Shown: piece by piece, positions 31,656 to 61,784 of the stretch | How the letters are laid out: each line of letters begins with the position of its first letter | Numbering within the stretch: position 1 is the first letter of the stretch | Assembly (NCBI GenBank): GCA_963575745.1 | Contig: CAUYUJ010015702.1 | Coordinates: 60,001 to 124,000 of the forward strand | Source of the DNA: Prorocentrum cordatum | Taxonomy: Eukaryota; Sar; Dinophyceae; Prorocentrales; Prorocentraceae | Direction of reading: 5' to 3' | Length of the DNA: 64,000 nt | Position numbers and translations under genes: made by a program | Notes under the pieces: model-generated | Seen by the model: only the letters and a program-made list of their open reading frames with translations | What the model was told of the DNA's origin: nothing | Databases searched by the model: none

Positions 31656-31809
31656 TTTTTCCTCTGCAGCAGCGCCCCGAGCTTGTCCAGGCCCCCCGCC
31701 ACGCGAGGCAGAGCGGCACGCCCTCGGCCTGCAGGGCTGTGCCGCAGGGGCCGCCGCCACGACGCGCCGCGCCAGAGTTCTCTGGCGCGCTTCAGTGGCA
31801 ATTCCCTGT

Positions 31810-32164: not shown

Positions 32165-32440
32165 ACCCTCCTCCTCCTCCCCTCTCCTCATCCTCTCTCC
32201 TCCTCCCCTCCTCCTCCTCTCCCACCCTCATCCTCCTCCTCTCCTCCTCCTCCTCCTCCTCCTCCTCTCCTCATCCTCCTCCTCCTCCTCATCCTCCCTC
32301 CCCCGCTCTCCTCCTCCTCCTCCTCCTCTCCTCTCCTCCTCCTCCTCCTCCTCCTCCTCCTCCGCCTCCTCCTCATCATCCCCCCCCTCCTCCTCCTCCT
32401 CCTCCTCCTCCTCCTCCTCCTCCTCCTCCTCCTCCGCGAA
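32165..32440. repeat. (CCT)n pyrimidine array
   Basis: CTC/CCT/CAT triplets, bounded on each side by GCGAAGCCCGAAGCAAGAGG (about 32,136 and 32,436), a direct repeat flanking the array. Confidence 0.95.
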
Positions 32441-32503
32441 GCCCGAAGCAAGAGGCACGTATCCCCACCTGGGCGGGCAGCTCGGCCAGCGCGGCCAGAG
32501 CCC

Positions 32504-32633
32504 CTGGCATCGCTCGGACGTGTGCATTTTTCCTTCGGCGAGGACCATCGAGGAGCATCCTTGATCATTTCGCGAAAAGACCACGCACGAAACCGAAAAA
32601 GGCACAGGAAATGGGCTTCCGAGCGATGGCCAG
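32504..32633. mobile_element. IE-E inverted-repeat element, copy 2
   Basis: CTGGCATCGCTCGGACGT at the left and CTTCCGAGCGATGGCCAG at the right. It lies 68 bp before kinesin exon 3. Confidence 0.8.
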
Positions 32634-32701
32634 AGCTCGGCCAGCGCGGCCAGAGCCGCGCCAGTGGGGACAGGGATCGGTGAAGCCGTGCTCGCCAGCA
32701 G

Positions 32702-33293
32702 GGAAGACCACCACCATCATGGGCAAGCCGTCGCCGGTCGAGGAGCAGGGCATCCTCCTGAGGCTGATCACCGAGCTGTTCGCCGAGGTGGCGCGCCTGC
32801 AGGCCGAGGGCTACGAGGCGACCGTGCAGCTGCAGATGCTGGAGGTGTACAACGAGAAGATCTCGGACCTGCTGGTTCCTCGGAACAAGAGCAACTCACC
32901 GGGGGGCGACAACAAGAAAGTCGACGTCCATGTGCACCCGGACATCGGGGTGTATCTCACAGGGGCGACGGAGCTCACGGTGGAGAAGGCCGACAAGTGT
33001 GCGCAGTGGATCGAGTTTGGGAACTCTATGAAGACAGTCCACGCCACGGCGATGAACTCCCAAAGCTCCCGCGGGCACACTGTCGTCAAGATCAACGTAG
33101 AGCGGAAGGGTGGCCCCGACGGCACGGTCCTGCGCTCCGAGGTGTACTTCGCAGACCTCGCCGGCCGCGAGAACGAGAAGACCACGCAGGTCCAGGGGGA
33201 TCGCCTGATCGAGCTCACGTTCATCAACCGCAGCCTCCTGCAGCTGGCGAACTGCATCCAGACCCTCGGCAAGGCCGGCATGGCCGCCCGCAG
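32702..33293 (+). CDS. Kinesin exon 3 (motor core)
   Basis: The largest motor exon. In order: completion of the P-loop with GKTTTIMGK; VQLQMLEVYNEKISDLLV, the strand ending in the family's NEKIxDLL signature; the switch I region NSQSSRGHTVVKI, where the usual SSRSH has Gly for Ser; and switch II YFADLAGREN, where the usual DLAGSE has Arg-Glu-Asn. The relay helix NRSLLQLANCIQTLGKAG follows. The exon probably ends at CGCAG before a GA donor (33,294), leaving two bases that are completed by the first G of exon 4. Other GA/GC donors a few codons downstream would also be in phase. The changed switch residues are expected to affect ATP hydrolysis, but that is inference. Confidence 0.9.
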
Positions 33294-33394
33294 GAAGACC
33301 ACCATGAAGCCCCAGGCCCCGAGCCCGCCGGACGGGGCACCCGAGGAGCGCGGGTCGGCCACGGCTCCAGGCCTCCCGAGTGGGCTCCGGGCAG

Positions 33395-33560
33395 CTGGGG
33401 TCGGCGGACCGCGCCGCATCTCCGAGGCCTCGTCGATGCGGCGCGATGTGGAGCACGGTGTCCTCCGCGCCCGCGGCGCCGAGGCATCGCCGAGGTCGCC
33501 GGTGCACTGTCGAGGCATCGCCGAGGCATCGGCGGTGCGGCGCGGTCCTCCCGCCCGACC
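33395..33560. mobile_element. IE-G inverted-repeat element, copy 1
   Basis: GGACCGCGCCGCATCTCCGA near the left faces TCGGCGGTGCGGCGCGGTCC at the right. Multiple GGCATCGCCGAGG units lie inside. It resembles 48,541-48,776. It occupies kinesin intron 3. Confidence 0.7.
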
Positions 33561-33731
33561 TGCGGTCGGATGGAGGGACAAGATCCAGGTGGGTTCGGGG
33601 AGGGTGCCCTGCTGTGCGTCGTGCTTGTTGGGCGTTCTTGTGCATCCCACGGGGGAGGGCACCCTCGAGTGCTCTTCAGTCTGGCCGGCGGAGGGCCTCC
33701 TGTTCTCAGAGGCTGTTTTCCTCTGTCCCAG
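33555..33731 (+). repeat. IE-H repeat copy carrying the exon 4 acceptor
   Basis: Homologous in word order to 2,570-2,746 (GGTTCGGGGAGGGTGCCC, GTCGTGCTTGTTGGGCGTTC, TTGTGCATCC, GGGGGAGGG, GGCGGAGGG). It ends CTCTGTCCCAG at the intron/exon boundary. Confidence 0.65.
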
Positions 33732-33945
33732 GTCGGCCGCGCCCAGAGCCCATCCCGGGAGGCCTCCGGCAGCAGTCCGCCCCGCACCGCTCCTGCGCGG
33801 GGGCCCCTCCCCGGGCAGCGTCCCGCGGGGGTGCGCCCCGCGGCCCGCCGTGGGGCCGGGGAGGGGCAGTGCCAGGCACCGGTTGCGCGGAGGACGGCTG
33901 CCGCCCCGGGAGGACAGCCCGCCGCCCCCGAGCAAGAAGGGCAAG
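33732..33945 (+). CDS. Kinesin exon 4 (long basic loop insertion)
   Basis: About 71 residues rich in Pro, Arg, Gly and Ala (SAAPRAHPGRPPAAVRPA and so on) ending LPPREDSPPPPSKKGK. The phase matches both neighbours: one leading base completes the exon 3 codon, and the exon ends phase 0 before a GA donor at 33,946. The next exon starts DMSKFRNSKLT. This places the insertion in loop 12, between the relay helix and the conserved RNSKLT strand. That is where kinesin-3 motors carry their lysine-rich K-loop that binds the tubulin tail. CAAGGAC is repeated at the two ends of the following intron. The call depends on phase, position and the acceptor rather than sequence conservation. Confidence 0.6.
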
Positions 33946-33964
33946 GACTCCCGCTCCCTCCATT

Positions 33965-34145
33965 TTGTTCTTCCTCCTCCTCCTCCTCCTCCTCCTCCTC
34001 CTCCTCCTCCTGCTCTTCCTCCCCCTCGTCCTCCTTCTCCTCCTCCCTACTCCGCCTCACTCCTGTCCTATGTCCTCCTCCTCCTCCCCTCTCCTCCTCC
34101 TCCTCCTCCTCCTCCTCCTCCTCCTCCTCCCCCTCCTCCTCTTCA
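33965..34145. repeat. (CCT)n pyrimidine array
   Basis: Pyrimidine triplets directly after kinesin exon 4, leading into an inverted R1 copy. Confidence 0.95.
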
Positions 34146-34164
34146 ACTCCTTTCCATTGTAAGC

Positions 34165-34845
34165 ACTTTCTCCCTGTCGCACCCCGAGGCCAGTTCTTAG
34201 GGCGGGCCGGGTGTTTCGCCGGAGACTTCCTGACCTTTTGTGGCCTTGAAGCTCAAACATGGGCAGCAGTTTCGCACATGGAGGGCGGGTCGTTTTCAAA
34301 ATGCGGCTCTCGCCTTAGCGCCACGCATATTCGTTGTTTGGGGGATTGTTGCAAGAGTTTTACCGATTGGGGGCGAACCGTTTTCAAATTGTGACTCTCG
34401 TTTAGCGCCGCGTAGATTCGCTGAAGATTCGCAAGAGCTTCACGGATTGAGGGCGGTTCCTTGTCAAAATATGGCTCTCGCCTTAGCGCCGCGCACATTT
34501 TAACCTGTGCAAGAGTTTTACGGATTCCCATGATCAGCGTACCAGGAATGGTGTTTTGGAAGAGTTTCGGATTATGAGGGTGCAACAGTTACGTTGATTC
34601 GCGGTGGTGACGTCCCAGGAATGGCGTTCTGTCAAGGTTCAGGATCGTCAAGACGCAACAGTCAGGTTGATCCGTGGCACTGGAATCCCAAAAGTAATGT
34701 TTGGGCATGCTTCAGTGTCTTCAAACGGTTGTCTTCCAACGAGGTAGTTCCCTCAGTGGAAATGAACCGTTGTAGGTGCCTACGAAGAGGAAGCTTGGAG
34801 GGAGGGTTGATTCCAACGTCGTTGATGACTCTTGGGTTTACACTG
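34165..34845 (-). repeat. R1 composite repeat, copy 5 (-)
   Basis: Reverse orientation: ends GACTCTTGGGTTTACACTGG followed by (CCT)n, the complement of the R1 start next to (GGA)n. Internal units carry GGCTCTCGCCTTAGCGCC. Confidence 0.85.
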
Positions 34846-35399
34846 GTCCTCCTCCTCCTCTCCTCCTCCCCGTGCTCCTCCTCCTCCTTCTCCTCCTCTC
34901 CTCTTCCAGTGGAGCAGAACTTTGGGCAGCGGCCACAACGATCATGCACAAAAGCCATAGCTGCATCGACTACAAGGATAGGTGGCGAAGAGGAGAAGCA
35001 CACGGATGCAACATCGAGCGCCAGTACGTACTCGGAATTGTGGAGATTCTTGGCGGTTGCCAACGGCCTTGGCAGGGACCATGTGTCGTGTTTTTTTTCC
35101 GCGCCTCTCGCAAGCGGAGGCCCTCCGTGTCGGGGACCCGCTAGCGCACTGGCATGACAGCAAGCCTTGGACCGTTACGCCAAATGAAGGGCCAGGATGC
35201 ATCCTCGACGGCTTCCTGACGCGGGGCTTGCTAGCGTACTGGCACGACAGCAAGCCTTGGGCTGTTACGCCACATGAAGGGCCAGGATGCACCCTCGACG
35301 GCTTCCCGACAAACGAGTTCGGGAGCTGCGAGAAGGTGCAGCGGGCCCGACGCTGCGGCTGGTACTGCGCCTCCTGCGCTCGTGCTCAAAAAGGAGGTA
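34846..35399. repeat. (CCT)n, then an 85-bp tandem pair
   Basis: A pyrimidine array at 34,848-34,910 is followed by mixed sequence. Two tandem copies of about 87 bp (35,132-35,218 and 35,219-35,310) then follow, sharing ACGACAGCAAGCCTTGG-type sequence and GAAGGGCCAGGATGCA. Downstream, frame EFGSCEKVQRARRCGWYC looks protein-like but has no partner exon. Confidence 0.7.
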
Positions 35400-35580
35400 C
35401 TCCAGATTTCGTAATAAAAGGGAGGGGGTCTGGACCCTCCAAGACAAGCCATTTCAGACCCCCCCCCGTGGGAGAACCCTCCAAAACATCGTCCCCAGAC
35501 CCCCCCCAGGCCCTCCAAGATAGCTTGGAAGAGACCCCCCCCGAAATGAGACCCCCCTCCCTTTATTACGAAATCTGGAG
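35400..35580. mobile_element. IE-C MITE, copy 1 (181 bp, TA duplication)
   Basis: Begins CTCCAGATTTCGTAATAAAA and ends TTTATTACGAAATCTGGAG, flanked by TA at 35,398-35,399 and 35,581-35,582. The interior is runs of C with CCCTCCAAGACAAGCC and CCAAAACATCGTCCCC. The TA duplication and CTCC terminus fit a Tc1/mariner-derived (Stowaway-like) MITE. An inverted copy of the same length is at 55,759-55,939. Confidence 0.95.
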
Positions 35581-35582
35581 TA

Positions 35583-36414
35583 GGGCAGATGCTGAGAAAC
35601 TTGAGCAAGTGGAGAGGCCTCCCAGCCTTGGGTTTGAGTGATGACCTCGGGTACGCGGTTAGGAGGCTTAAGGGCAGATGGATTTGCGCGAAGTGCGGAG
35701 GCAGCCGCGCCCCAAGGGCCGAACTGGCTGGTTTTGTTTGAGGGGGCCCGCCCAAGGGGACCCGAGTGGTCCATGTATCCCAGAAGTTTTGGAAGACTGG
35801 CCCACTGGCCTGGTGCGCGGAATGTTCCCATGCTCTCGCGAACCTGGCCAGGCACCGAGTGGCTGGCTGGCTCTCCTTGGCCTAGCGCGTACGGGCGCCT
35901 CTTTTCCTGTTGGCCTGGCGCCGCGTTCTCGGAGCCCCCCGGCGTTATCTGGAGCCTCTGGAGCCCCCTCCACCTCCTCTGCAGCTCCTTTCCCCCCCCC
36001 CCCACAGTCACGTCGCCCTCCGGACAGCCCCATTCTCCGAGCATGCCGGCCCATTCGCGGCGCACCGGCCCTGGCCGCCCAGGGGGGAGGCTGTCCTGCG
36101 AGCGAGGCCGAACCTTTTCGCTCCAGCTTGTCGTTTTGTCTTGCAGTCCCCCGGAGGGCTCCTGGTGCTGGCGCCACTCAGGTGAAGCTCTGCGGAGCGG
36201 AGTGCCTTCGGAGTCTCCGCCCCCGTCGCGGCTGAGTTTTGTCTGTGGCCATTGCACGAGCCACCTGGGCTGCCGCGTAGCCGGACTACGCCCGCGCGCC
36301 CTGACCTGCCCCTCCAGTCTGCACGTCGACGTCTTGACCCCCTGGCAAGAGCAGCGGCGATCAGATCTCGGCCTCTTAGCTGCTACTCTGTTCAGATTCG
36401 ACGTATCCCCCGCA
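35583..36414. other. Kinesin intron; possible LINE tail fragment
   Basis: No exon fits the kinesin. Frames around 35,640-35,900 carry RRLKGRWICAKCGGS and then WCAECSHALANLARH, cysteine-pair spacing reminiscent of the zinc-finger tail of LINE polyproteins, with stops between. I cannot confirm it. Confidence 0.3.
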
Positions 36415-36535
36415 CCACTCCTCCTCCTCCTCCTCCTCCTCCTCCTCCTCCTCCTCCTCCTCCTCCTCCTCCTCCTCACCTGCTGCTCCTCCTCCTCCTC
36501 CTCCTCCTCACCTGCTTCTCCTCCTCCACATCCAT
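36415..36535. repeat. (CCT)n pyrimidine array before an exon
   Basis: Ends 65 bp upstream of kinesin exon 5. CTGTTCAGATTCGACG occurs on both sides of it (36,389 and 36,541), a flanking direct repeat. Confidence 0.95.
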
Positions 36536-36600
36536 CTATTCTGTTCAGATTCGACGCGTCCGTCGCATCCCTCCTCCCCCTCCTCTCCTGTCCTTACAAG

Positions 36601-36714
36601 GACATGTCCAAGTTCCGCAACTCGAAGCTGACGCTCCTGCTCTCCAACGCCCTGAGCGGCAATTCCCGCACGGCCATGATCGGCACGCTGAGCCCCGCGA
36701 TCGGCAACTTCGAG
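36601..36714 (+). CDS. Kinesin exon 5 (motor C-terminal strands)
   Basis: After TTACAAG, 38 codons read DMSKFRNSKLTLLLSNALSG and NSRTAMIGTLSPAIGNFE. This is the highly conserved RNSKLTxLLxxALGGNSxT block and the following strand of kinesin motors. The exon ends at GAG before GAGGGAGG, a GA donor that immediately starts a 300-bp (GGA)n array. The next exon begins GAG AGC TAC, giving NFEESYSTLRFA. Confidence 0.9.
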
Positions 36715-37025
36715 GAGGGAGGAGGAGGAGGAGGAGGAGGAGGAGGAGGAGGAGGAGGAGGAGGAGGAGAAGGAGGAGGCGGAGGAGGCAGAGGATGAAG
36801 AATAGAGGGAGATCGCCATACATGGAGGAGGGAGAAGGGATAATGGAGGGAGAGGGGGGAGGAGAGGAGGGAGGAGGGAAGAATGGAGGGACGGAGGGAG
36901 GGAGGGAGGGAGGAGGAGGAGGAGGAGGAGGAGGAGGAGGAGGAGGAGGAGGAAGAGGAGGAGGATGAGAAAGCTACGCACGAGGAGGAGGAGAAGGAGG
37001 AGGAGGAGGAGGAGGAGGAGGAGGA
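36715..37025. repeat. (GGA)n array starting at the splice donor
   Basis: Purine array that begins with the first base of kinesin intron 5 and runs about 310 bp, with one non-repeat island at 36,795-36,850. Confidence 0.95.
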
Positions 37026-37029
37026 TGTT

Positions 37030-39740
37030 CCCGAGATCGACAGGGGTCTCACCACGGACCCGCGCAACAGAGAACTGGAATGCGTTTGACTACAAGCGTT
37101 TACAGGCATGGCAGAATTCGATCCGGAGAGGCCGACTCGCTTCATAGCAGCGGACCAGAGGCTCACGCATTTTGGCAGTAAACCGATATCGATTCCACAG
37201 TGGAAGCTGATGAAATGAAGCATGACACCGAACGTGGTGGTGGAGCCAGGGAAGTCGTATGGTGCTGGCATATCGGGCCATGCTCCTATCCAAGTGGCGC
37301 TTCATCCTCGGCGATTCCGTGGTCTACCTGAACAACAAACTCCACGCGTTGTATGTGAACCGCAGGAGTATCGGGAGGCGCTGGGCCACCTGCCAGCACC
37401 GCGTTGGAAGTGAATGAAGCGTCTCAGGTGTGACGCTGCCAAAGTTGCGAGAAACAGCCTCACTCGATCCTCCCTCCCCTCTCTCGAGGCCCGCCTCCTC
37501 GTCTTCCGCTGCTCGATCTCGAGCGCTGCTCATTTCAACGATTTGCGCCTTCGCAAGGACCCTCTGCTTGCCAGGTCGTGCCCGGTGGTTGAACTCCTCC
37601 AGGTCGTCGCGCTTCCTTCTTTCCGTTGTTTCCCTGGCTCGGCCAATCGAGTTACGCAGGGAATGCGAACGCTTGCACCAGCTGCTTCTTGATGCTAGGC
37701 TCGCTCGGGCCCAAGAAGAGGTCCAAGTGGAGTCGACGGCGGCTCTGGAGAGGAAGAGGCGGCCAGCGCATGTGAGGGCTGAGAGGGCGTCGGGGCAAGT
37801 TCAGGACTCCCAGAAGCAAGACTCTCCCGCTGCAGGCCCTGGTGGGCCCCCTCTGGCGCTACTCTCCTCTCCTTCGGACATGCGAGCTCATTGGGCCCCC
37901 TCTTTTGCGCCAACGCGAGCCCAGTTGAAGCATCTCGGAGCCGAAATCTCCAGGAGCACACCAACGAATTTGATTGGTCTGAGCTTAACTTGCCCACGGA
38001 GGAACTCATTCGTGTCACTCTGGCTCGCGCCTCTCCAACGGCAGCGTGTCCAGATGGCTTCCCCTGCGCGGCCTGGCAGACTGCGAAGCAAGCGCCCCCG
38101 GTTCGAGTTCGACAGTCTCTTGCTGGTGGTTGCTCCGAAGGTTAGGCTGGAAGCAGCTTTGTGCTTAGAGAAGCTGCCGCCACTCGCCCGCTTCCTCTGA
38201 AGAGTACGAGCATCAAAGCCCTAGCAGCTTGCAACCACAGAACCAGCCAATCCCCAGTCGCGAGTTGCATCAGGATCAGGGGGATCTGTCGCGGGACGCA
38301 ATTTCTTGGACAATGTCGCTCCTCTGGGAACGTCGGTTCGAACATCTAGCATCTAGCATGCTTACGGGCGCTTCAGTGGACCTTCTTACCCTCCGCCTCG
38401 AGTTCGGTAACCCTTTCCCCTCTTTGATTCACGCGATTGTCTGGAACGTTCTGGAGCTAGTGGGTCTCCCTGAATGCTTCAGGAGTCTCATCCATGGCGC
38501 TTGCTGTCTGGCTTTCGCCAAAACCCCGCTCCAAGAGCTTCTTGTGTTTTTTTCCCTCGTAGTCACTGCTGTGTGATGCCTGGGGGGCCCTGCGAGCGAC
38601 AGCATGTGGGCTCTGGCGATGGATCCCCTCATGCGGGACATGTGTGCCAGATAAAAGAAGCATTCTGGGTCGGAAGTGTGTGTGTGTGTGTGTGTGTGTG
38701 CGAATGACGTCGGGGTGGCTGTGAGGGAGTTCGTCGCTCAGCCTCGATTATCGGAAGTCTTCTATGCTGCCCGTCTTCCAAGTGGCCTCAAATTTGAGTT
38801 CCCTGCATGTTGTGTCATTCCTGTCCCAGAGGTCTTTTCGGAGGAGCTCAAGACTCGTGTCCAGTCGTTCATGAGAACCCATGCTGCCAAGTGGGCCTGG
38901 ATCCCAATCGTAGAGGCGGCGGAATCTCTTGGGGTGTGGATCGGCTCCAGAGCAAGTCGTGAGACGGTGTGGCGTCGTATGTTCCGTGAGTGTTGGGGAA
39001 TCAATGACATTGCTGCTGCCAGGGCCGTCCCTTGATTGCTATCACGTTGTGTAATTCGAGGGCCGTCTAAGCTGAGCTAACTTGCCCAGCTGACGCCCAT
39101 CCCAACATTAGTTCTTCAGTTGGAGTCGTGAGCCCTTCATACGATCCTCCATCTCCCTGCCTTCAGGTTCCGTCTGGAACAGATCCCCGCTCTTAGGCAA
39201 TGGTCCCGCCTGAGACCGCAGTCTGTTCGTGTCCAGTCTGTCGCCTCTATCTTGCGCTCGGCCAGAAACACGATCACTAATTGGCGCTCCTAGTGGAAGC
39301 ACTGCAGACCGCCGCGAGGACCCACAGACCCATGACCGACTGGCCGGACAGGGTTGGGCCCCTCCCCACTGGCAAGCACCGGCCTTTTTCCAACCTGGAT
39401 CAGGTTTGCAAATTCGGGTGTTTTGGCGAATGTGACTTCCAGAAGCACTGCGTACCTGTATAACCTTCTCTTACCGGGGGCGGGGCAAGCTGTTTGGATC
39501 CCATCCACTTTGGTCGAGGTCTTTGTGGACCGAAAGCTGGGTTTTGCTCGTGCGATGTCTCCCGAAGATCGTCTTCTCGCGTGTCAGAGGCGTGTGCTTC
39601 GTTTCTATAAGTTCGATTCGATCAGGAGAGTGAAGGATGTGGATCAGGAGATGGTTTATCAGCATGCGAAGGCTGCCAGAGCGCAGCTTTTTCAGCAGGC
39701 AGATGGTGCACCCTGGCTCCACACGAACTCATTCCGAGCT
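37030..39740 (+). mobile_element. Degenerate LINE remnant inside kinesin intron 5
   Basis: Broken by many stops and frameshifts but recognisable in order. An endonuclease end lies near 37,165-37,320 (FGSKPISIPQWKLMK, GAGISGHAPIQVALHPR). An RT start lies near 37,990-38,080 (CPDGFPCAAWQ). An RT block lies at 38,370-38,520 (LRLEFGNPFPSLIHAIVWN). An RT C-terminal portion lies at 38,700-39,030 (ARLPSGLKFEFPACCVIPV, ESLGVWIGSRAS). A further tail lies at 39,420-39,740 (FARAMSPEDRLLACQRRVL). It differs clearly from the intact LINE at 4.6-14.7 kb. A (TG)n run at 38,676-38,702 interrupts it. Confidence 0.75.
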
Positions 39741-39744
39741 GTGT

Positions 39745-39895
39745 GCGAGGAGGAGGAGGAGGAGGAGCAAGAAATGATGATGAGGAGGAGTGAAGGAAGG
39801 AAGGAAGGAAGGAAGGAAGGAAGGAAGGAAGGAAGAAAGGAAGCAAGGAAGGAAGGAGGAAGGAGGAGGACGGTGGATGAGGACGAGGAGTATGA
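39745..39895. repeat. (GGA)n/(GGAA)n array before an exon
   Basis: GAGGAGGAG, then a run of GGAAGGAA (39,795-39,860), then GGA. It ends about 10 bp before the acceptor of kinesin exon 6. Confidence 0.95.
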
Positions 39896-39905
39896 CCATT
39901 TGTAG

Positions 39906-39980
39906 GAGAGCTACAGCACCCTGAGATTCGCTGTCACGGTGGGGGCGATCAAAGTGGAGGCCACCAAGACAACCGAGCAG
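39906..39980 (+). CDS. Kinesin exon 6 (end of motor, neck)
   Basis: Starts after TTTGTAG with ESYSTLRFAVTVGAIK, the ESxSTLRFA motif that closes the motor domain, followed by VEATKTTEQ leading into the neck. It is small, 25 codons. It ends GAGCAG before GACTGC (GA donor). The following intronic sequence repeats the start of the next exon almost exactly (39,973-40,002 against 41,479-41,508), so the exact cut point within the repeat is ambiguous, but the joined protein, KTTEQDYPALVKKL, is the same. Confidence 0.85.
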
Positions 39981-40034
39981 GACTGCCCCACCATGGTGAA
40001 GATCACCACCCTCATCCACAATTCGTTTCCCTTC

Positions 40035-40250
40035 TCTCTCCCTCCTCTCTCCTCCTCCTCCTCCTCCTCCTCCTCCTCCTTGGTGGCTCGTGGAGGATGA
40101 ACCCCCCCTGTACGCTCGTCTCCTCCTCCTCCTCCTCCTCCTCCTCCTCCCCGCCTCCTCCTCCTCCTCCTCCCCCTCCTCCCCTCCTCCCCTCCTCCCC
40201 CGCCTCCTACTCCTCCTCCTCCTCCCCCTCCTCCCCCATTCTCCTCCTGT
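40035..40250. repeat. (CCT)n pyrimidine arrays
   Basis: Two blocks (40,040-40,080 and 40,123-40,250) separated by 40 bp, in kinesin intron 6. Confidence 0.95.
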
Positions 40251-40589
40251 TACCTGTAACCCGTCGCTTTGAAGGCTGCAGAGGGCGGCGAGTGAGCATG
40301 TTCTTGTCTTCGCAAAAGAAAATCTCAGGTCCGAGGGGGGGGGCGGTGCGTGTTTGCCAGAAGATAAAGAGGTGCACGGCGTTCTTTGTCGCGCAGCCTC
40401 TGGTGGCTTCATGGGCAGAGAATCGCGCCAGGTTGCTGCCGAGCAGCTTTCATGGAAGGCTACGCGCGACCAGCCTGTACATTTTTGTGGGTTTGGCCGC
40501 GCCGCGAGATCAATGTCCTGACAATCTTGGGTGTCCATGTCTCGTTCTACATTGTCGCTCCACGCGTGGCATTATTTCAGGCACGCGAA

Positions 40590-41060
40590 TCGGCCCGACG
40601 ATCACCAAACACTTACACCACACTTACACAACACCACACTTACACAACACCTGCACCACTTGTACACTACATGCGTACCACTTCTACACCACATCTGCAT
40701 CATAATTACACAACTTTCAATCCCATGCACACCACATGCACCCCAGACCGCACTTACTGCGCGCCAGGGCCTCGTTGAGATTCCGCCCGCGTCCCCTGGA
40801 ATACGGCGGAGCCGCCTGGGATTAAGACAGTAATGAAACAATGCAGTTCTTGTTTGGGGGCCACTGGGATCGGAAACCGCGCCCGGGAATGCACCAGAGG
40901 ACACGAATCCAACACGACCAAACATGTACACCACCACATTTGCCCCACATGTGCTCCGACGCCTGCACCTCATGTGCACCACGGCGACACCGCTTTGACG
41001 CCACATTCGCACCACATCCACACCACAACGACACCACAACTGCACCGCACGTGGCACGTG
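40590..41060. repeat. Degenerate CACCAC/ACTTACACAA minisatellite
   Basis: Two blocks (40,605-40,750 and 40,915-41,060) of imperfect 12-16 bp units such as CACCACACTTACACAA and CACCACATGTGCACC. The words are the complement of the TGTGGTGCAAT family at 16.7-17.3 kb. Confidence 0.8.
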
Positions 41061-41486
41061 CTGCATGCGCGCTGCAGGGCGATCCCGCGCTCTCCCGTGG
41101 ACCACAGGCGGTGGCGCTTGGTTCGCACTCGGGCCCTGCGCCAGGCAGCGCTCGTGCCCCGTGCCTGTCGCGCAGGACGCCCCGAGCCGTCGCCTGGGCC
41201 GTCGAGGCCGACGGGCTTCGGCTCCTGCTGCTCCCCCCGCGCTTGCCGCCGATGCTGCGCTCGCAGTCGCCTGGCTCGCGAGGCGAACTGCGCTTGGAGG
41301 GCAAAGGCGATGCCTGAGAGCTCTGCGCGGGCGAATCCGATTTCCCCGCGGAGGTCGGCGGCCTTCGCGCGCTTGCCCTGGGACTTACGAGCAGGCCCAC
41401 TAGGTTACAGCTGACCTCCCCCCGCAGCCTTAACACCCGCCACCTCGGGCCCTACGGCGCTCGGAACGCCTCCCTCCGCCGAGCAG
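41061..41486. other. Kinesin intron 6, 3' part; nothing seen
   Basis: GC-rich unique sequence, open in several frames, with no motif or repeat I can delimit. Confidence 0.5.
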
Positions 41487-41639
41487 GACTACCCCGCCCT
41501 CGTGAAGAAACTCCAGGGCGAGGTCGCGGAGCTGAGGTCGCAGCTGTCAGAGGCCAAGGCCAACGTCTTCACGGACCACGGCATCAAATTGGTCGAGACG
41601 GAGGTGCGGGCACGGGAGGAGCTCGTCGACAGGCTCACG
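41487..41639 (+). CDS. Kinesin exon 7 (coiled coil)
   Basis: 51 codons: DYPALVKKLQGEVAELRSQL, SEAKANVFTDHGIKLVETEV and RAREELVDRLT. This has heptad-spaced Leu/Val with charged residues, the coiled coil that follows the neck in dimerising kinesins. It begins after GAGCAG (41,481-41,486) and ends at ACG before a GA donor (GAGAATAG). The last 12 bases around the donor, AGGCTCACGGAG, recur as AGGCTCACGAAG at the next acceptor. Confidence 0.85.
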
Positions 41640-41789
41640 GAGAATAGTACTACTAACTTACCCGGTGACGTACCCAACCCTCTTCTAACACGGGGCAGCT
41701 ATATCATGGATCTCCCAATACAAGCGAACATGATGAAAGACGCGCATTTCGCATCACCCCAGGGAGATTCAGGGAGCACCAAGCTGGGT

Positions 41790-54529: not shown

Positions 54530-54572
54530 GTGCGTGCTTATCTCGGGGAACAAGCATTGACATAATCATGAC

Positions 54573-54733
54573 CTTTCGGACCGGCGGAACTCCGCGCAGA
54601 TTTTTCGGATCGGCGCTGGAGCCTCCTGGCGGCGCCTCAAGCGCCGCCCCTGGCGCGCTCAGCGCGCCAGGGAGGGGTTCCAGCACCGATCCGATATACG
54701 AGTCCGTGCAGACCTCCGAAAGCGTATGACGAT
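54573..54733. mobile_element. IE-A element at the 5' end of intron 2
   Basis: Left TCATGACCTTTCGGACC, TCGGATCGGCGCTGGA and CCTGGCGGCGCC face right GCGCGCCAGGG, CCAGCACCGATCCGATAT and GACCTCCGAAAGCGTA. This is a full nested hairpin, followed at once by a (GAT)n array. Confidence 0.8.
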
Positions 54734-54868
54734 GATGATAATGATGATGATGACGATGACGATGACAATGATGATGCTGATGATGATGCTGATGCTGATG
54801 ATGACGATGATGGTGATGGTGATTCTGATGGTCATGGCGATTCTGTTTACGATGACGATGACGATGAC

Positions 54869-54902
<34 letters not shown>

Positions 54903-54990
54903 GTGATGTTGCTGATGATAATGACGATGATGATGATGATGATGATGATGATGCCAATGATGATGATGATGGTGCTGATGATAATAATAC

Positions 54991-55023
<33 letters not shown>

Positions 55024-55085
55024 GGAGGATGAGGATGAGGATGAGGATGAGGATGAGGATGAGGATGAGGATGAGGATGAGGATG

Positions 55086-55118
<33 letters not shown>

Positions 55119-55126
55119 CTGATGAT

Positions 55127-55190
<64 letters not shown>
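54727..55190. repeat. (GAT)n triplet array
   Basis: ATGATG/GACGATG triplets with a 6-bp GATGAG block (55,018-55,090), then GGTGGT to 55,197. Confidence 0.95.
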
Positions 55191-55193
<3 letters not shown>

Positions 55194-55217
55194 GGTTGCC
55201 ATTGGTTTTGTTCCTAG

Positions 55218-55404
55218 ACTATCCGCTGCTTGACGAAGGAGCGCGACAAAAGCTTTATCGACGAGATCGAGCAGAGCGCCGCCGGGTTCGACGCCGGTGC
55301 CCCGGGCATGCGCTTCGACACGCACGCCATGCTGGTGTCCGAAGTGCCTCGGGTGGTGGTCGCTCACAAACCGCCGATCAGCGCGTATTGGGACCGGGCC
55401 AGAG
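55218..55404 (+). CDS. Membrane-ankyrin-kinase gene, exon 3 (hydrophilic loop)
   Basis: Begins after TTCCTAG with TIRCLTKERDKSFIDEIEQS and continues AGFDAGAPGMRFDTHAMLVS and VPRVVVAHKPPISAYWDRAR. It is polar throughout, so it is probably a loop between membrane helices. It ends one base into a codon before GATCGG (GA donor at 55,405), where a (GGA)n array starts at once. The G plus AG of the next exon makes the Glu codon, and the reading frame is preserved. Confidence 0.75.
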
Positions 55405-56203: not shown

Positions 56204-56384
56204 GTTGATGCCAGGTTGGGCGTTATCGAAGACGCCTATGGCGAACCACCGCCGCCCCATGCCTGTTGCAAACGTCTACGTGGCCAAATCTTGGCCAGGC
56301 TTTTGGACTATGTGTTCCCCCAGTCGTTGTGGAGATCCTTGGGGGATCACCTGGGAGAGAAGGAGAACTGAGGATGAGAGGGAT

Positions 56385-57130
56385 GCGAAGGAGGAGGAGG
56401 AGGAGGAGGAGGAGGAGGAGGAGGAGGAGGAGGAGGAGGAGGAGGAGGAGGAGGAGGAGAAGAAGGAGGCCTCTTGAGGCCGTCCCGTGGGCTTCCCGTG
56501 GGCTTCCCGGGAGCCTCGCAGGGGGCCTCTCGGGGGGCCTCTTCGGCGCGGGCGACTCGCTGTGGCCTTTCCTGCCTTCCCGCGCGGCCAGCGGGATCGG
56601 GCCACCCGTGCCTCTCGGAGGGCTCGCGGGGCTTCTGGTGGGGCTTGTCGGGGGCCCTGCCGGAGGTCTCGGGGTCTCATCTGGGGCCGTCTTTGGGGGC
56701 CCTCTCGGGCCGTCTCGGGAGCCTCTTTTTGGAGCCGCCTGGGGGCCTTCCTGGAGGTCGTCATTTGGCCGCCTCGGGGAGATCTTTTTGGGCCTCTTGG
56801 ACCGTCTTGGAGCGTCGGAAGCCCGAGAAGGCGAGCACGCTTTGAAATCTACAAAGCGTCTGGGGAATCCTTGAGTTTGGCCTTTCGGAGCCCTCGTGGG
56901 GTGGCCTCGTCTTGGGGGCCCATGGGCCGTCCGGAGGCTCTCCTGGGCGTCTTGGGAGCGACTTTCGGGCGACGCGGGGCCCTCTTGGACCGTCTTTAGT
57001 TTTGGGGACCTCCTGGGACCCTCCTTCGCCAGTTGTGGAGCCCCCCTTGCCCCGGGAAAGATCACGCGGGGAGCCCAGGAGACCCCCAGAGAGCGCCCAG
57101 GTGGCGCCCAGCCGCGCCCAGACATTCCGG
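56385..57130. repeat. (GGA)n array, then GGGCCTCTTCGGG-type repeats
   Basis: Purine array 56,385-56,465, then degenerate G/T/C-rich units (GCCTCTCGGGGGGCCTC, GGAGCCTCTTTTTGGAGCC) that resemble 16,350-16,610. These fill intron 4. Confidence 0.7.
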
Positions 57131-57216: not shown

Positions 57217-57792
57217 GCACGGTGGCGGATGTTGCTGTTGCTGGACTACTTGTTCGGCCTAGTGGCCCTCAGAGTCATCACGGGCTCCAAGCTGATCCTG
57301 GTGCTGAGCATAGACATTTTCGTAGCCAACGTGTGCCGTTTCATCGATGAGCACGGCCTGGCAATACAGGCGCAGAGGGTATCCAGATTCTTATGGGTGC
57401 TGCGAAATGTGCAATTCTGCCTGGCGTTTGCTCTGTACTATCACTACGCACTCCAGCCGAACGACAGAGGAGCCCTCGAGGGCAATGGTGCCAAGAGGCT
57501 GCTGATAGTAGGCATGACCGCACAGTTTGCCACTTTCGTCTTCCTGCGCTTCACGAAGGTGGGCAACGAGTCGGTCGACGTCTTCGTCGCCGCCCAGCGC
57601 GGCGACATCGAGGCGCTGGAGGATATCCTGCGCGCTGGCTGCGACCCGGACGTCAGGCAGGGCGACTCGCACCACGAGACCGCGATGCACGTGGCGGCCT
57701 CCCACGGCCAGGTCGCGGTGCTGCAGGCGCTCCTGGAGCACCGCGCCGACGCCCGGCTCCTCAACGACAACGACGAGACGCCCCTCCACATC
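57217..57792 (+). CDS. Membrane-ankyrin-kinase gene, exon 5 (last spans, ankyrin repeats)
   Basis: 192 codons. Hydrophobic segments RMLLLLDYLFGLVALRVITG, KLILVLSIDIFVANVCRF, FCLAFALYYHYAL and MTAQFATFVFLRF complete the membrane region. Ankyrin repeats follow: FVAAQRGDIEALEDILRAGC with DPDVRQGD, then ETAMHVAASHGQVAVLQALL with EHRADARLLNDND, then ETPLHI. The last repeat is cut in mid-motif at 57,792, exactly where the IE-B element begins, and resumes with ACRRGDTDAIE at 57,992. The start is chosen at the first AG after an in-frame TGA (57,189-57,191). GCACGG at 57,217 keeps phase 0. Reading through IE-B would stop at 57,892-57,894. Confidence 0.85.
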
Positions 57793-57986
57793 TCGGGTCG
57801 GGCGAAAGGGGGGGATTGGGAAAGGGGGGGTTTCGAAATCTGCTGCATGCAGCTGGTTTCGGCCTCACCGAGGGGCCCATTCCTCGATACATAGCCGCCT
57901 CCGGCGCCGGGAGGCGCCGGGAAAATCAGCTACGTGAGCTGATTCTCAAACCCCCCTTTGCTATCCCCCCCTTTCGCCCGACCCGA
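57793..57986. mobile_element. IE-B element, copy 2 (194 bp), acting as intron 5
   Basis: Perfect 24-bp terminal inverted repeats starting TCGGGTCGGGCGAAAGGG and ending CCCTTTCGCCCGACCCGA, flanked by the 5-bp duplication ACATC (57,788-57,792 and 57,987-57,991). It interrupts an ankyrin repeat between TPLHI and ACRRGD. Removing element plus one duplication (199 bp, not a multiple of three) restores the frame. No GT/GC/GA to AG pair can do this. Confidence 0.95.
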
Positions 57987-57991
57987 ACATC

Positions 57992-58024
57992 GCCTGCCGG
58001 CGCGGCGACACCGATGCCATCGAG
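57992..58024 (+). CDS. Membrane-ankyrin-kinase gene, exon 6 (33-nt ankyrin microexon)
   Basis: Eleven codons, ACRRGDTDAIE. Joined to the previous exon it gives DETPLHIACRRGDTDAIE, and to the next exon AACQKNKEGETPLQVLKQ. Together these make a textbook ankyrin repeat TPLHIA..G...AIEA......N.EGETPLQVL. It ends GAG before GCTCGG (GC donor, 58,025). The next exon follows CTCGAG, so TCGAGGC is repeated at the two ends of intron 6. Without this microexon the ankyrin repeat cannot be completed, which supports both its reality and the removal of IE-B. Confidence 0.8.
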
Positions 58025-58651
58025 GCTCGGGGGCCTCCAGGGCGGTGCGGTGACCACACCGTGTGGTGACTCGGTGGGGATGCAGGATTCCGTGTCGCCG
58101 CACGGCTCTGGGAGGAGGAGGAGGAGGAGGAGGAGGAGGAGGAGGAGGAGGAGGAGGAGGAGGAGGAGGAGGAGGAGGAGGAGGAGGAGGAGGAGGAGGG
58201 GGAGGAGGAGGAGGAGGAGGAGGAGGAGGAGGAGTAGGAGGAGGAGGAGGAGGAGGAGGAGGTGGAGGAGGAGGAGGAGGAGGAGGAGGAGGAGGAGGAG
58301 GAGAAGGAGGAGGAGGAGGAGGAGGAGGAGGGGGAGGCCGGGGCCTCTGGGGTCCCAAGACCGTGCGGTGACGGACCGCGTGTTGAGGTCGTTGGGGATG
58401 CCGAGGTCACCGCGCGGTCTGTCACCATACGGTTTTTGAACGCCCAAGAGGTGCTGGTGCAGCCGCGCACCGTCAGCGAGCCCGAGCACGGGCCCGCCCA
58501 CGGCCGCGAGAGCGTCAACGCCGACAACGGTCTCGGCGGCGCGGCCGGGGTTGGGCACAGCGTGGGGTACAGCGTGGGCCACAGCCAGGCTGGGCCCGCG
58601 CTGGGCAAAAGCGGGGATGACGAGAGTGAGGGCTACGACCCCAGGCTCGAG
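58025..58651. repeat. Intron 6: (GGA)n array and hairpins
   Basis: Purine array 58,108-58,338. An imperfect hairpin CCGTGCGGTGACGGACCGCG / CGCGCGGTCTGTCACCATAC spans about 58,366-58,432. Further GTGACCACAC and GTGTGGTGAC words lie at 58,048-58,072. The frame of exon 7 is open back through the array, but the sequence before 58,652 has no ankyrin or kinase character. Confidence 0.8.
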
Positions 58652-59245
58652 GCCGCGTGTCAGAAGAACAAGGAGGGGGAGACGCCCCTGCAGGTCCTCA
58701 AGCAGGGCGTGCCCTTTAAGGTGGCGCAGATGGTCGCGGATGCCCAGAAGGCGGGCGCGGCCACATACTTTGTGACGCAGACCAGGAGCCTGCAGAGGAC
58801 CATCTCCATGGAGTACCAAGATGAGTCCATGCGGCTCTTCGGACAGGAGGTTGGTAGTAATGTTTCCAGGTTCAGGTTCGGGCCCGCGTCGGAGAAAACT
58901 AACCAGCAGAACAAAACCGATGGGCTCGCGTCCTTCATGCTCTCCACTGGTATCGGTGACCAGATGGCCCAGGCCCTGGATAGCATCCACGAGAGCGACC
59001 ACGAGGTCCGGCTGTCTTCGCTGAAGACCCAGGGGATGCTGGGCGCAGGAGCGTTCGGGAAGGTCATCAAGGTGCTGGACGCCAGGACGGCAGAGGTCTA
59101 CGCCATGAAGCTGCAGAAGAGAAACATGACGACCAAGTTCGCCGTCCGGGAGGCTCAGGCCATGGAGTACTCGCACGCGTTCATCGTCCGCATCGTCCAC
59201 ATCTTCCAGACCAGGACGTTCTATGGCATTCTCATGGAGCTCGAA
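58652..59245 (+). CDS. Membrane-ankyrin-kinase gene, exon 7 (linker, kinase N-lobe)
   Basis: 198 codons. It opens with the rest of the ankyrin repeat (AACQKNKEGETPLQVLKQGV), then a polar linker with RSLQRTISMEYQDESMRLFG, a basophilic RxxS/T-type sequence. The kinase N-lobe follows: the glycine loop LGAGAFGKVIKV, the ATP-anchoring lysine in VYAMKLQKR, the helix C glutamate in VREAQAMEYSH, and strands ending YGILMELE. Motif style is that of AGC/cyclic-nucleotide-type kinases, but no cyclic-nucleotide domain is present. I end it at GAA before GAACAA (GA donor, 59,246). One codon either way is possible. Confidence 0.9.
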
Positions 59246-59430
59246 GAACAAACGCCATGAACATAAGCATTCGGCGCTCCGCGCGGATCTCTTGGATCCC
59301 CTGGCGACGCCTCTGGCGCTGCCCCTGGCGGCGCCTCCGGCGCGCCAGGGTGGGGAGCCCAGCGCAGATCCAAGGAAGCCGCGCGGACCGTCGACAGTTT
59401 GTGCTCATGCAGTGTTCCCTCGTCGAGGAG
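59246..59430. mobile_element. IE-A element forming all of intron 7
   Basis: The 185-bp intron is essentially one IE-A hairpin. Left CCATGAACATAAGC and CTCCGCGCGGATCTCTTGGA face right TCCAAGGAAGCCGCGCGGAC and GTTTGTGCTCATGCAG, with GGCGGCGCCTCCGGCGCGCC in the centre. About 20 of 25 positions of the main arms pair. Splice ends are GA and AG. Confidence 0.85.
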
Positions 59431-59622
59431 TGCTGCGAGAGGAATCTGAACAAGTGCATCCTCGACTATGCGGACAGCAGCGGCTACGCCCACGGGCTGC
59501 CGGACGCGAAGACCGCCAGGTACACCGCGTGCGTGGCCCTCGCCCTGGACAGCCTCCACGGCAGGAGGATCGTCTTCCGGGACCTGAAGCCCGAGAACAT
59601 CCTAGTCTCCTCGCACGAGAAG
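59431..59622 (+). CDS. Membrane-ankyrin-kinase gene, exon 8 (catalytic loop)
   Basis: 64 codons: CCERNLNKCILDYADSSGYA, then TARYTACVALALDSLHGRRI and VFRDLKPENILVSSHEK. FRDLKPEN is the catalytic loop (usual Y/HRDLKPEN), with the catalytic Asp and metal-binding Asn intact and Phe in the position of Tyr/His. The preceding helix fits the kinase E-F helix. It ends GAGAAG before a GT donor (59,623). The next exon follows an identical GAGAAG. Confidence 0.95.
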
Positions 59623-59849
59623 GTCCGGATGCAACTCCTGGGAGGTCAAATTCTGTTTTTGTCCTGGTCCGAAATCCGGCTTCATCCGGGCTAATCCGGC
59701 TTAATCCCGCTAAATCCCACTGAATCCGGCTTGATCCCGCTTAATTCGGCTGAATCCGAGGCCCACTCCGGCATAACAGCCCCCCAATGGGGCTTAATCC
59801 TCCTTAATTTTGCCGACGAAGACCTCCCAGTAGTTGCCTCCTAGAGAAG
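59623..59849. mobile_element. Inverted-repeat element forming intron 8
   Basis: GCAACTCCTGGGAGGTC (59,631-59,647) pairs with GACCTCCCAGTAGTTGC (59,821-59,837) at 16 of 17 positions, 8 and 12 bp from the splice sites. GAGAAGG flanks both ends. The middle is a degenerate AATCCGGCTT decamer repeat (59,671-59,765). Confidence 0.85.
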
Positions 59850-59873
59850 GGTGACCACGCCAAGCTCACGGAC
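59850..59873 (+). CDS. Membrane-ankyrin-kinase gene, exon 9 (24-nt microexon)
   Basis: Eight codons, GDHAKLTD: the strand leading to the DFG motif of the activation segment. The Phe-Gly that must follow is not contiguous here (the next codons read TTC TCG GAG). FGLARRID is found at 60,814, after an intron whose ends carry the 5-bp repeat ACTTC. The exon is needed to complete KLTDFGLA, so I regard it as real despite its size. Confidence 0.8.
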
Positions 59874-59999
59874 TTCTCGGAGGAGGGACGTGGGCCACCC
59901 CCAGACCGCGAGCCCCAATCAGAGGAGGGCCGGCCCAGAGGTTGGCGTCCCACCGATGGATTCTCGGTTCGGCTTCTCGTCATCGTCGTCGTCGTCGTT

Positions 60000-60042
<43 letters not shown>

Positions 60043-60813
60043 GCGTTGGCGTCGGCGTCGGCGTCGGCGTCGTCGTCAGCGGCGTCGTCGTCGTCGTCGT
60101 CGTCGTTTTGGGCTTCCTGGGATTGCTCTTTCAGATGTTCGTTTTGGGGACCTTTTTGGGGCCTTCCTCACGGATCTGTTCGATCCCAGTGCTCGGCGGT
60201 GGGCCCGGTGGGGAAACGAGAAGGGGCGGGCCTTCTCTCCGAAGGCTCGGAAGTTCCTGGGCCTTCTGCGAAGTCTTCTGAGCCTTCCGCAGAGACACAG
60301 AAGACCTCTCAGACGGCGCGAGGGCTTCTGAGAAGGCCGCCGCCGTCTGAGAAGGTCTGCTCCTTCTCAGCTCCTCCTCCTCCTCCTCCTCCTCCTCCTC
60401 CTCCTCCTGATCCTCCTCCTCCTCCTCTTCCTCCTCCTCCTCCTCCCCCGCCTCCTCCTCCTCCATTTCCTCCTCCTCCTCCTCCCCCTCCTCCTTCTCC
60501 TCCTCCTCCTCCTCCTCCTCCTCCTCCTCCTCCTCCTCCTCCTCCTCCTCCTCCTCCTCCTCCTCCACTCCTCCCTCCTCCCTCCTCCTCCCTCCTCCTC
60601 CTTCTCCTCCTCCTTCTCCTCCTCCTCCCCTCCTCTCCTCCTCCTCCTCCTCTCCTCCCTCCTCCTCCTCCGATCTCCTCTCTCTCTCCTCATCCCCTCC
60701 TCCTCCTCCTCCTCCTCCTCCTCCTCCTCCTCCTCCTCCCCCTCCTCCTCCCCCTCTCCCTCCCATCGCTTGCCGCCGATCGGTGGTGGTGGGCCACCTT
60801 TCTCCCCCGGAAC
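59874..60813. other. Intron 9 with non-standard ends; (CGT)n and (CCT)n arrays
   Basis: Holds a (CGT)n array (59,985-60,110), TTCTGAGAAGG hairpin words (60,290-60,345) like those at 47.5 kb, and a 400-bp (CCT)n array (60,370-60,765). Direct repeats ACTTC lie at the two ends. No AG occurs within 40 bp before 60,811. Confidence 0.75.
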
Positions 60814-60894
60814 TTCGGCCTGGCGCGGCGCATCGACCCGCTGCCCGTGAGCCCCTGCACCCCGATGACGCCGGGCACCTGCCGCCACTCGGAG
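60814..60894 (+). CDS. Membrane-ankyrin-kinase gene, exon 10 (activation loop)
   Basis: 27 codons beginning FGLARRIDPLPVSPCTPMTP and ending GTCRHSE. Joined to exon 9 this gives KLTDFGLARRID, the DFG motif and start of the activation loop. Ser/Thr-Pro sites (PVSPCTPMTPGT) could be phosphorylated in activation. It ends GAG before GACGTC (GA donor, 60,895). The next acceptor is CCCGAG before GACGGC, so CGAGGACG-like sequence is duplicated across the intron. The 5' boundary is ambiguous within the ACTTC repeat. Confidence 0.8.
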
Positions 60895-61352
60895 GACGTC
60901 GGGAGCCTCAGACGGGGGTCGGTGCAAACGGGGGTCAGCCAGAGCCTGGAGACGGGGGTCAGCGCAAACGTCGGGGGTGGACAGACCTCCTACCCTGACA
61001 CGTCGATTAGCGAATTGGCCGTTTTCGGTTCGCGAGAGGGCGTCGCGGCCGTCATTTTTGAGGGTCCAGGTCCGTCGGTTTCGGTCCCAGGCCGTTTTCA
61101 CTAAAGGGAGGTTTACTAAAGGGAGGTTTGTCCACCGCCGGAAACGGGGGTCAGCCAGAGCGCCCGATCTTGCAGGATCCTGCAGGGCCAGGGTCGCACT
61201 GACCCGGGCTTGGGCGCAGGCTCCTGCAGGATCCTGCAGGGTCCTTCGCGTTGACCCGGGTTTGGGTGCAGGAACTGGCAGGGCCTTGCAGGATTCTGCA
61301 AGGCCTGACGGACCCGGGTCTGGATTGACCCGGGTCAGGAGATATCCCCGAG
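60895..61352. repeat. Intron 10: tandem GACGGGGGTCAGC and GATCCTGCAGG repeats
   Basis: At least three ACGGGGGTCAGC units (60,912-60,975), then repeated TGCAGGATCCTGCAGGGYC and TGACCCGGGT words to 61,345, partly palindromic (AGGATCCT, GACCCGGGTC). Includes a TTTACTAAAGGGAGGTTT duplication at 61,100-61,130. Confidence 0.75.
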
Positions 61353-61460
61353 GACGGCAGCCCGCCGTACCAGCTGGACGCCGGGCCCATGGAGCCGATC
61401 GCCACGGACTTCCCGAAGGCGTCGCCGGTGTCCGGCACGCTGTCCTTCATGCCGGAGGAG
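61353..61460 (+). CDS. Membrane-ankyrin-kinase gene, exon 11 (end of activation segment)
   Basis: 36 codons, DGSPPYQLDAGPMEPIATDF and PKASPVSGTLSFMPEE. GTLSFMPEE matches the GTxxYMAPE end of kinase activation segments, with Ala-Pro-Glu reduced to Pro-Glu-Glu. It ends GAG before GCTCGG (GC donor at 61,461). The remaining C-lobe (helix F with its Asp-Trp motif, and so on) is not found in the next 2.5 kb, so it lies downstream of the window or is lost. Confidence 0.8.
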
Positions 61461-61784
61461 GCTCGGGGGAGGGAGCTCGGGAGAAGGCGGCACGCCGCCG
61501 TTGCGGAGAAGCGTGCGGGGCCTTGCGAGGGGTGGGTCGCGGGGTGTGTCGCGGGGTGGGTCTCGGGGTGGGTTGCGGGGGGGTCGCGGGCGAGGACCAC
61601 AGCAACAGCAACAGCAACAGCAATCGTTTTCATACGGTTCGCTCTTCTCTTCTCGAGTGTCAGCCAACGTGTGCATCCCAAGCCCTCGGTGCCCACCCTC
61701 TTCGTCTTCGATCGTGCCATTTTTGGGATATCTATATATATATATATATATATCTCTCTCTCTCTCTCTCTTTCTTCCCTGCAG
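61461..61784. other. Intron 11: GTGTCGCGGGGTGGG repeats, (TA)n and (CT)n
   Basis: Short GTCGCGGGGTGGG units (61,530-61,590), CAACAGCAACAGCAACAG (61,602-61,622), a TA run (61,732-61,752) and a CT run that ends in TTCCCTGCAG at 61,784, a clear acceptor. Confidence 0.7.

Follow-up and report, generated by a model that had tools for sequence, protein, structure and literature searches.

A gene of the dinoflagellate Prorocentrum cordatum that encodes ankyrin repeats and a protein kinase domain is interrupted, in the middle of an ankyrin repeat, by a hairpin element that has no standard splice sites at its ends. Is this element an intron that arose from a transposon and that is removed from the mRNA in an unusual way, or is it a fresh insertion that kills the gene? 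The original prediction, which was made from a 64-kb stretch of DNA (the window), left both choices standing. We find that the element is a recent copy of an abundant transposon. We give slightly better than even odds (about 0.52) that its family acts as introners and that some copies, including this one, are removed without standard splice sites.

The element and the gene that it splits

The element (57793-57986, forward strand) is 194 bp long and lies in the sense direction of the gene. As predicted, its terminal inverted repeats are perfect over 24 bp: the left one (57793-57816, forward strand) is the reverse complement of the right one (57963-57986, reverse strand) at 24 of 24 bases. ACATC is present on both sides, at 57788-57792, which is the end of the upstream exon, and at 57987-57991. 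Removing the element along with one copy of the duplication (199 bp) does bring back the frame, with the join TPLHI|ACRRGDTDAIE, and a match to the Ank_4 profile spans this join (4.5e-17; residues 153-202 of the gene model, with the join at 188/189). The six possible exact cuts also give the end pairs that had been listed, that is, AC-GA, CA-AA, AT-AC, TC-CA, CT-AT, and TC-TC, and none of these is GT-AG, GC-AG, or GA-AG. The claim that no other simple removal restores the frame was too strong: our enumeration, which took in the element and its surroundings, found 25 GT/GC/GA-AG combinations that are in frame and free of stop codons. Still, none of them restores an intact ankyrin repeat. For example, cutting from the GT at 57797 to the AG that ends at 57938 leaves about 18 foreign residues behind.

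As RNA, the element is predicted to form one hairpin over nearly its full length (-132.7 kcal/mol, versus a mean of -88.5 for shuffled sequences; z = -9.4), and the stem begins at the element's first base. A chance inverted repeat can be ruled out. A 20-base pattern for the ends, with up to 3 mismatches allowed, has 4 matches in the window (two are the element's own ends) versus 0.05 expected, and a filtered scan of the window for exact 11-base inverted ends with a duplication of at least 5 bp returned only the element and one 1437-bp pair. The filtered scan missed a second, imperfect copy of the same transposon in the window (29619-29820, forward strand), which is 202 bp long and has CAGGG at 29614-29618 and at 29821-29825. 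This second copy is apparently inside an intron of a gene with many exons that encodes a kinesin-like motor (28435-41642, forward strand). That gene also has a GC-AG intron in the P-loop (31309-32701) and a GA-AG intron (36715-39905), which have direct repeats at their ends (CAGG and AGGAG, respectively).

All of the exons of the ankyrin-kinase gene are on the forward strand. The exon before the element (57229-57792, with a provisional 5' end) encodes a membrane segment and ankyrin repeats (Ank) up to NDNDETPLHI, and it matches the protein P0004 at 87%. The remainder of the split repeat, ACRRGDTDAIE, is encoded by a short exon at 57992-58024. Then come a GC-AG intron (58025-58450, with the direct repeat GAGG), an exon for a linker and the N-lobe of the kinase (58451-59236), a GA-AG intron (59237-59427) whose join ILM|ECCERN is as in P0005, an exon that continues the kinase to ENILVSSHEK (59428-59622), a GT-AG intron (59623-59849, with the direct repeat GAGAAGG), and the exon GDHAKLTDF (59850-59876). 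Past a second insertion, which we discuss below, are the exon GLARRIDPLPVSPCTPMTPGTCRHSE (60817-60894), a GA-AG intron (60895-61352, with the direct repeat GAGGACG), and the exon DGSPPYQLDAGP...GTLSFMPEE (61353-61462). Each of these four introns has standard ends that restore the frame exactly, and the focal element does not. With both inserts and the four introns removed, the frame is open for 597-602 residues and encodes ankyrin repeats and a kinase domain (Pkinase, 5.9e-28). Related proteins, including P0009 and P0012, which are named as transcript assemblies, are continuous through both joins wherever they cover them.

We took P0005 to be the published model of this locus. P0005 was informed by RNA-seq, yet it lacks exactly the two non-standard joins: it begins at MLSTG, after the ankyrin part, and it jumps from HEK to DGSPP, omitting both of the exons that flank the second insertion. 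The gene-finding pipeline for P. cordatum recognised GT, GC, and GA donors (PMC10666404), and because it took only those, the missing joins are weak evidence about splicing in either direction.

We note some other features of this gene. The intron at 54541-55224 has a near-duplication (TTATC/CTATC) and inverted-looking ends, and the paralog's reading of AY|RCL needs a non-standard cut. We set aside this junction as a third non-standard case because a GC-AG alternative, which reads TI for AY, can be made out by eye. The junction 56221/57229 is ambiguous. Long GGA/TCC microsatellites lie inside the gene's introns (i.e., at 56380-56460, 58110-58330, 60370-60750, and other places).

A paralog on another contig (L117 on C8982) reads CTCCACATCGCCTGC without interruption and has a single ACATC, so the focal site is an insertion with ACATC duplicated. 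The translation of the paralog's exon is contained, letter for letter, in P0004, although the record of P0004 gives a contig of 36,942 bp and C8982 has 32,500 bp. The flanking exons, compared over 199 codons, give a pS of 0.312 and a pN of 0.062; these values cannot show selection after the focal insertion, which is too recent for that. We found three such empty sites in DNA: this one, the site of the second insertion (in L114), and a site in an Mpv17-like gene (in L042).

A high-copy MITE family and its copies in coding sequence

A DNA search with the focal element gave 40 scored places, itself included, out of 1658 first-look candidates. All of these are full length and match at 97-100%; the other 39 are at 97-99%. 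In a protein search for the family, 150 places were scored from among 34,417 candidates, and most of these were translations of the element. From 111 stretches, 4 of which lacked clean ends, we delimited 108 copies, with copies that have identical flanks counted once; this sample is biased toward copies that resemble the query. The 5-bp duplication is exact in 86 of the 108 copies, has one mismatch in 8, and has two or more in 14. The family consensus is 195 bp, and while the median copy is 3.5 substitutions away from it, the focal copy has no private substitutions and is therefore a recent insertion. The focal element also has what is expected of a MITE: terminal inverted repeats, a duplication of constant length (5 bp), no transposase gene within its 194 bp, many copies, and an empty site in a relative. 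So the focal insert belongs to a high-copy family of non-autonomous hairpin transposons (MITEs) of P. cordatum that duplicate 5 bp of their target, and it arrived recently. This much of the original either-or, the MITE origin and the recency, has held up, given the family of copies, their 5-bp duplications, the lack of private substitutions, and the paralog's empty site.

Searches for a 21-base internal word of the element found 0 stretches in viral contigs and genome contigs, a collection from which records of the species' own genome may be left out. A six-frame protein search for further copies found only P0002, among lengths of about 207-658 amino acids. P0002 is a P. cordatum protein model in which a diverged copy of the element is read through as an exon, and it also has a weak ankyrin match. 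Two pairs of copies (L016/L017 and L036/L037) have identical flanks but are on different contigs, so they are segmental duplicates or unmerged haplotypes. In two other copies (L007 and L014), the stretch that is identical on the two flanks is 12 or more bases long and not 5.

Are any copies in coding sequence? For each of the 108 copies, we joined the flanks without the element and one duplication and scored the result for a single continuous coding frame. When each side had to score at least 6, we counted 5 copies in the sense orientation and in frame and 1 antisense copy in frame (L045, an ambiguous case that also scores in sense), with no off-frame copies in either orientation. At a minimum score of 4, we counted 8 sense in-frame, 3 sense off-frame, 3 antisense in-frame, and 1 antisense off-frame. 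We then hand-picked a list of coding copies from the rankings, with L019 added from a second scan, which gave 7 of 94 sampled copies. The focal copy (ACATC) has a Pfam match across its join. L019 (also ACATC) lies in an endonuclease/exonuclease/phosphatase domain and scores 15.6 bits with Pfam from the right flank alone and 27.6 bits when joined; a search of solved structures with L019 gave only one weak and unrelated match. L011 (ACAGG) lies in a cyclic nucleotide-binding domain, with a Pfam match across the join. L066 (ACGTG) lies in a weakly matching FSH1-like hydrolase (16 bits across the join, with a cut-off of 21). L041 (ACTTC on the left and ACCTC on the right) lies in the Mpv17-like gene of P0001, where only the part after the join matches (19.1 bits, with a cut-off of 27) and a paralog has the empty site. 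The last two, L035 (GTATG) and L009 (GGTTT), are without Pfam or paralog support and may be misjudged as coding.

The focal copy, L041, L066, and L035 do not allow an exact GT/GC/GA-AG cut, and the duplication of L019 is the same as the focal one. In L009 and L011, exact excision would have GT-AG ends. Across the 94 copies with duplications, standard ends are possible at the exact cut in just 4, which on the hand-picked list means 2 of 7 coding copies versus 2 of 87 others (Fisher p = 0.027). All 7 listed copies are in the sense orientation (p = 0.016, for the same hand-picked list). This count is weak, because three of the seven were found by or through the query: the focal copy is the query, L041 belongs to the locus of P0001, itself used as a query, and the sense-frame protein search with P0001 is what turned up L066. 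Without these three, the sense count is 4 of 4 (p = 0.125), and standard ends are possible in 2 of 4 versus 2 of 87 (p = 0.0085). We also considered whether coding copies prefer duplications that start with AC (19 of the 94 copies, including the focal copy, L011, L019, L041, and L066), and we dropped this idea, as a target preference explains it equally well.

A protein search with the interrupted focal frame had found one annotated P. cordatum protein, P0001, which ends in a translation of the same element. At its Mpv17-like locus there is a relative of the element that looks more diverged by eye and that the published P0001 removes as a 206-nt GT-AG intron (AAAAG|GTCGGG...CCGAGCAG|GGC). There is also a younger copy, at QHF|IFN, and the published model runs into this copy and stops there. 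A paralog (L042) reads GGLYQGCAQYFIFNVCYPVWFG without interruption, so exact removal at QHF|IFN matches the uninterrupted protein. In the younger copy (L041), the left duplication ACTTC encodes the expected F and the right one has changed to ACCTC, which would be as expected if the right duplication is absent from the mRNA; this is one case only. A search of solved structures with P0001 gave nothing usable.

So one relative of the element occupies the whole of a published intron, and GT-AG ends are available in L009 and L011. In all three, the duplication supplies AG|G, or a G beside the element's terminal A, which would make the whole element an exact GT-AG intron. These sequences support the view that an AG|G from the duplication allows members of the family to be exact GT-AG introns. 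It is because of the two coding copies and the annotated relative that we infer that the family acts as introners.

A second insertion in the kinase DFG motif

The same gene contains another insertion without GT/GC/GA-AG ends (59877-60816, forward strand). It is 940 bp long, has ACTTC at 59872-59876 and at 60812-60816, and has imperfect inverted ends. It splits the DFG motif of the kinase between HAKLTDF, whose last base is 59876, and GLARRIDPL, which begins at 60817. All six exact cuts give non-standard ends, and 446 nt separate the end of the last AG from the next exon. Among random pairs, 0.385% had inverted ends as good as these and 1.0% had a direct repeat of at least 5 (13/2000 in an earlier null). 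Inverted ends are not peculiar to this insert: with offsets allowed, it scores 36.8, compared with 25.0, 28.7, 38.2, and 23.0 for the gene's four standard introns, and the GT-AG intron at 59623-59849 is the one that outscores it. The imperfection of the inverted ends and the long microsatellites inside suggest that the DFG insert is old.

In a paralog on C13324, the contig of P0003, the same exon is uninterrupted and reads AAGCTCACGGACTTCGGGCTGGCG (the empty site L114). Across 27 codons around the DFG site, the focal gene and this paralog differ by 6 silent changes and no replacements, and across 199 kinase codons, pS is 0.254 and pN is 0.026. Overall, the differences between the focal exons and their paralogs are mostly silent (pN/pS of 0.1-0.2). 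This signal of purifying selection is between paralogs, so it may be partly or wholly older than the insertions. The kinase paralog on C13324 (L116) also has two introns, with the repeats AGGTTC and AGGAC, that have no counterpart in the focal gene, so the paralogs differ both ways in their introns. These AGG-bearing repeats give GT-AG (AGGTTC) or GA-AG (AGGAC) introns, with the ends assigned by eye.

The strongest argument for removal without standard ends comes from the DFG insert, which interrupts an invariant motif and lacks a usable acceptor, in a gene whose changes are mostly silent. The suggestion that the focal element is a variant-spliced intron gains some support from this second non-standard insertion in the same gene and from the family copies that could be exact GT-AG introns.

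How the inserts might be handled

Under our preferred explanation, the focal copy would be cut from the pre-mRNA at the duplication, even though it offers no standard pair of ends, and the DFG insert would be cut out likewise, as is needed if the kinase works. The hairpin stem, which starts exactly at the ends of the element, would bring both duplication copies close to each other, and the exons would be joined at the base of the hairpin, by the spliceosome or some other activity, with little regard to the end dinucleotides. Against this, P0005 contains neither join and P0001 stops inside a copy (a weak objection, given the donors that the pipeline allowed), and the genes that hold the coding copies without standard ends could be decaying.

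The main alternative is that a fresh MITE broke this copy of the gene, that nothing removes it, that the paralogs make the loss tolerable, and that the DFG insert is an earlier lesion. This would fit with the lack of private substitutions in the element, with the existence of paralogs that lack the inserts, with the failure of the published models P0005 and P0001 at the inserts, and with exact standard ends being possible in so few copies with duplications (4 of 94). It is harder to reconcile with exons that are otherwise open (597-602 residues) and that differ from their paralogs mostly by silent changes, or with the apparent age of the DFG insert, which we judge from its inverted ends and microsatellites. 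That all of the listed coding copies are sense also speaks against it, even if the count is weak. We see a broken gene as a serious possibility that holds a sizeable minority of the odds. The cell might instead treat the element as a minor-spliceosome intron, as one of the six exact cuts (k = 2) gives AT-AC. The consensus for the U12 5' splice site, as generally given, is ATATCCTT, and the start of the element, ATCTCGGG, looks unlike it by eye. Also, the DFG insert would have to be TT-AC. Furthermore, PMC7789003 reports that Amoebophrya lacks U11, U12, U4atac, and U6atac and cites others for their absence from other alveolates. We consider an AT-AC intron to be very improbable.

Standard sites inside the element are another option, as one of the 25 combinations, 57797/57938, is within it; the cost would be the extra residues, which would land within the conserved TPLHIA motif. 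As read from the sequence, the acceptor at 57938 has a C after it and lacks a preceding pyrimidine tract, and 79.7% of the annotated acceptors in P. cordatum are AGG (PMC10666404). Such sites would also leave the DFG insert unexplained, given the distance from its last AG to the exon. We think that the use of internal sites is improbable, though less so than an AT-AC intron. Finally, a high-copy repeat can be misplaced during assembly. The exact 5-bp duplication of the single ACATC in the paralog speaks against an error, as does the same architecture on many other contigs, and of all these explanations we find an assembly error the hardest to believe.

How does the preferred explanation, removal of the element at its duplication, compare with known systems? 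DNA-transposon introners are reported from Micromonas, Aureococcus, and Polarella (Huff et al. 2016; Roy et al. 2023), where elements with terminal inverted repeats and target-site duplications reportedly become introns, with the duplication helping to supply the splice sites and with standard ends. Unlike in those systems, most target sites of this family in P. cordatum are not able to give standard ends. Standard ends are also stated for the Aureococcus introners in PMC7789003. The original prediction likened the element to the nonconventional introns of euglenids. The general plan is indeed common to both, in that the introns of euglenids and diplonemids have short direct repeats and paired ends and a MITE origin has been proposed for them (PMC12621601), but these are an unrelated lineage, and the likeness is one of general plan.

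The closer match is to the introners of Amoebophrya A25 and A120 (PMC7789003), which have inverted repeats at their ends and direct repeats of 3-5 nt where they meet the exons. They form repeated families, their end dinucleotides are not fixed, and a hairpin brings the exons close to each other. Over 60% of Amoebophrya introns lack GT-AG, and in the two strains 11% and 30% of the non-canonical introns have inverted repeats of 8-20 nt and direct repeats of 3-5 nt (PMC7789003). Removal without standard ends is thus something that a relative can do. The focal element resembles these introns in its 24-bp inverted ends, its ACATC duplication, and the lack of GT-AG at all six exact cuts. There are also differences: the Amoebophrya introns were validated by RNA-seq and are from a parasite, whereas P. 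cordatum is free living; the inverted repeat in P. cordatum is longer (24 bp, within a hairpin of nearly the whole element); and a single family in P. cordatum offers standard or non-standard ends, as set by the duplication. Introner elements have been reported in P. cordatum itself, as introns enriched in inverted repeats at both ends (PMC10666404). Gene finding in that study accepted GT, GC, or GA donors and would miss inserts that lack such ends, as P0005 misses the two inserts in the focal gene. In the passages of open-access papers that our searches covered, introns without GT/GC/GA-AG are not described in Prorocentrum, and there may be an earlier mention elsewhere (Roy et al. 2023; Mendez et al. 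2015).

More broadly, and at somewhat less than even odds, we tentatively suggest that mRNA processing in P. cordatum removes hairpin transposons at the target-site duplication regardless of the end dinucleotides. If so, then a member of this family that lands in an exon in the sense orientation could become a harmless intron almost anywhere, and copies with AGG in the duplication would look like ordinary GT-AG introns. The non-standard copies would go unseen under standard annotation rules, and many genes would be called broken or truncated. Because the same element is found with varied 5-bp duplications, only some of which permit standard splice sites, the family is a natural series. Along with existing RNA-seq data, this series offers a test of whether structure alone can define a dinoflagellate intron and of how introns are born. 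The same test bears on whether the gene models of this 85,849-gene genome are shortened at such inserts.
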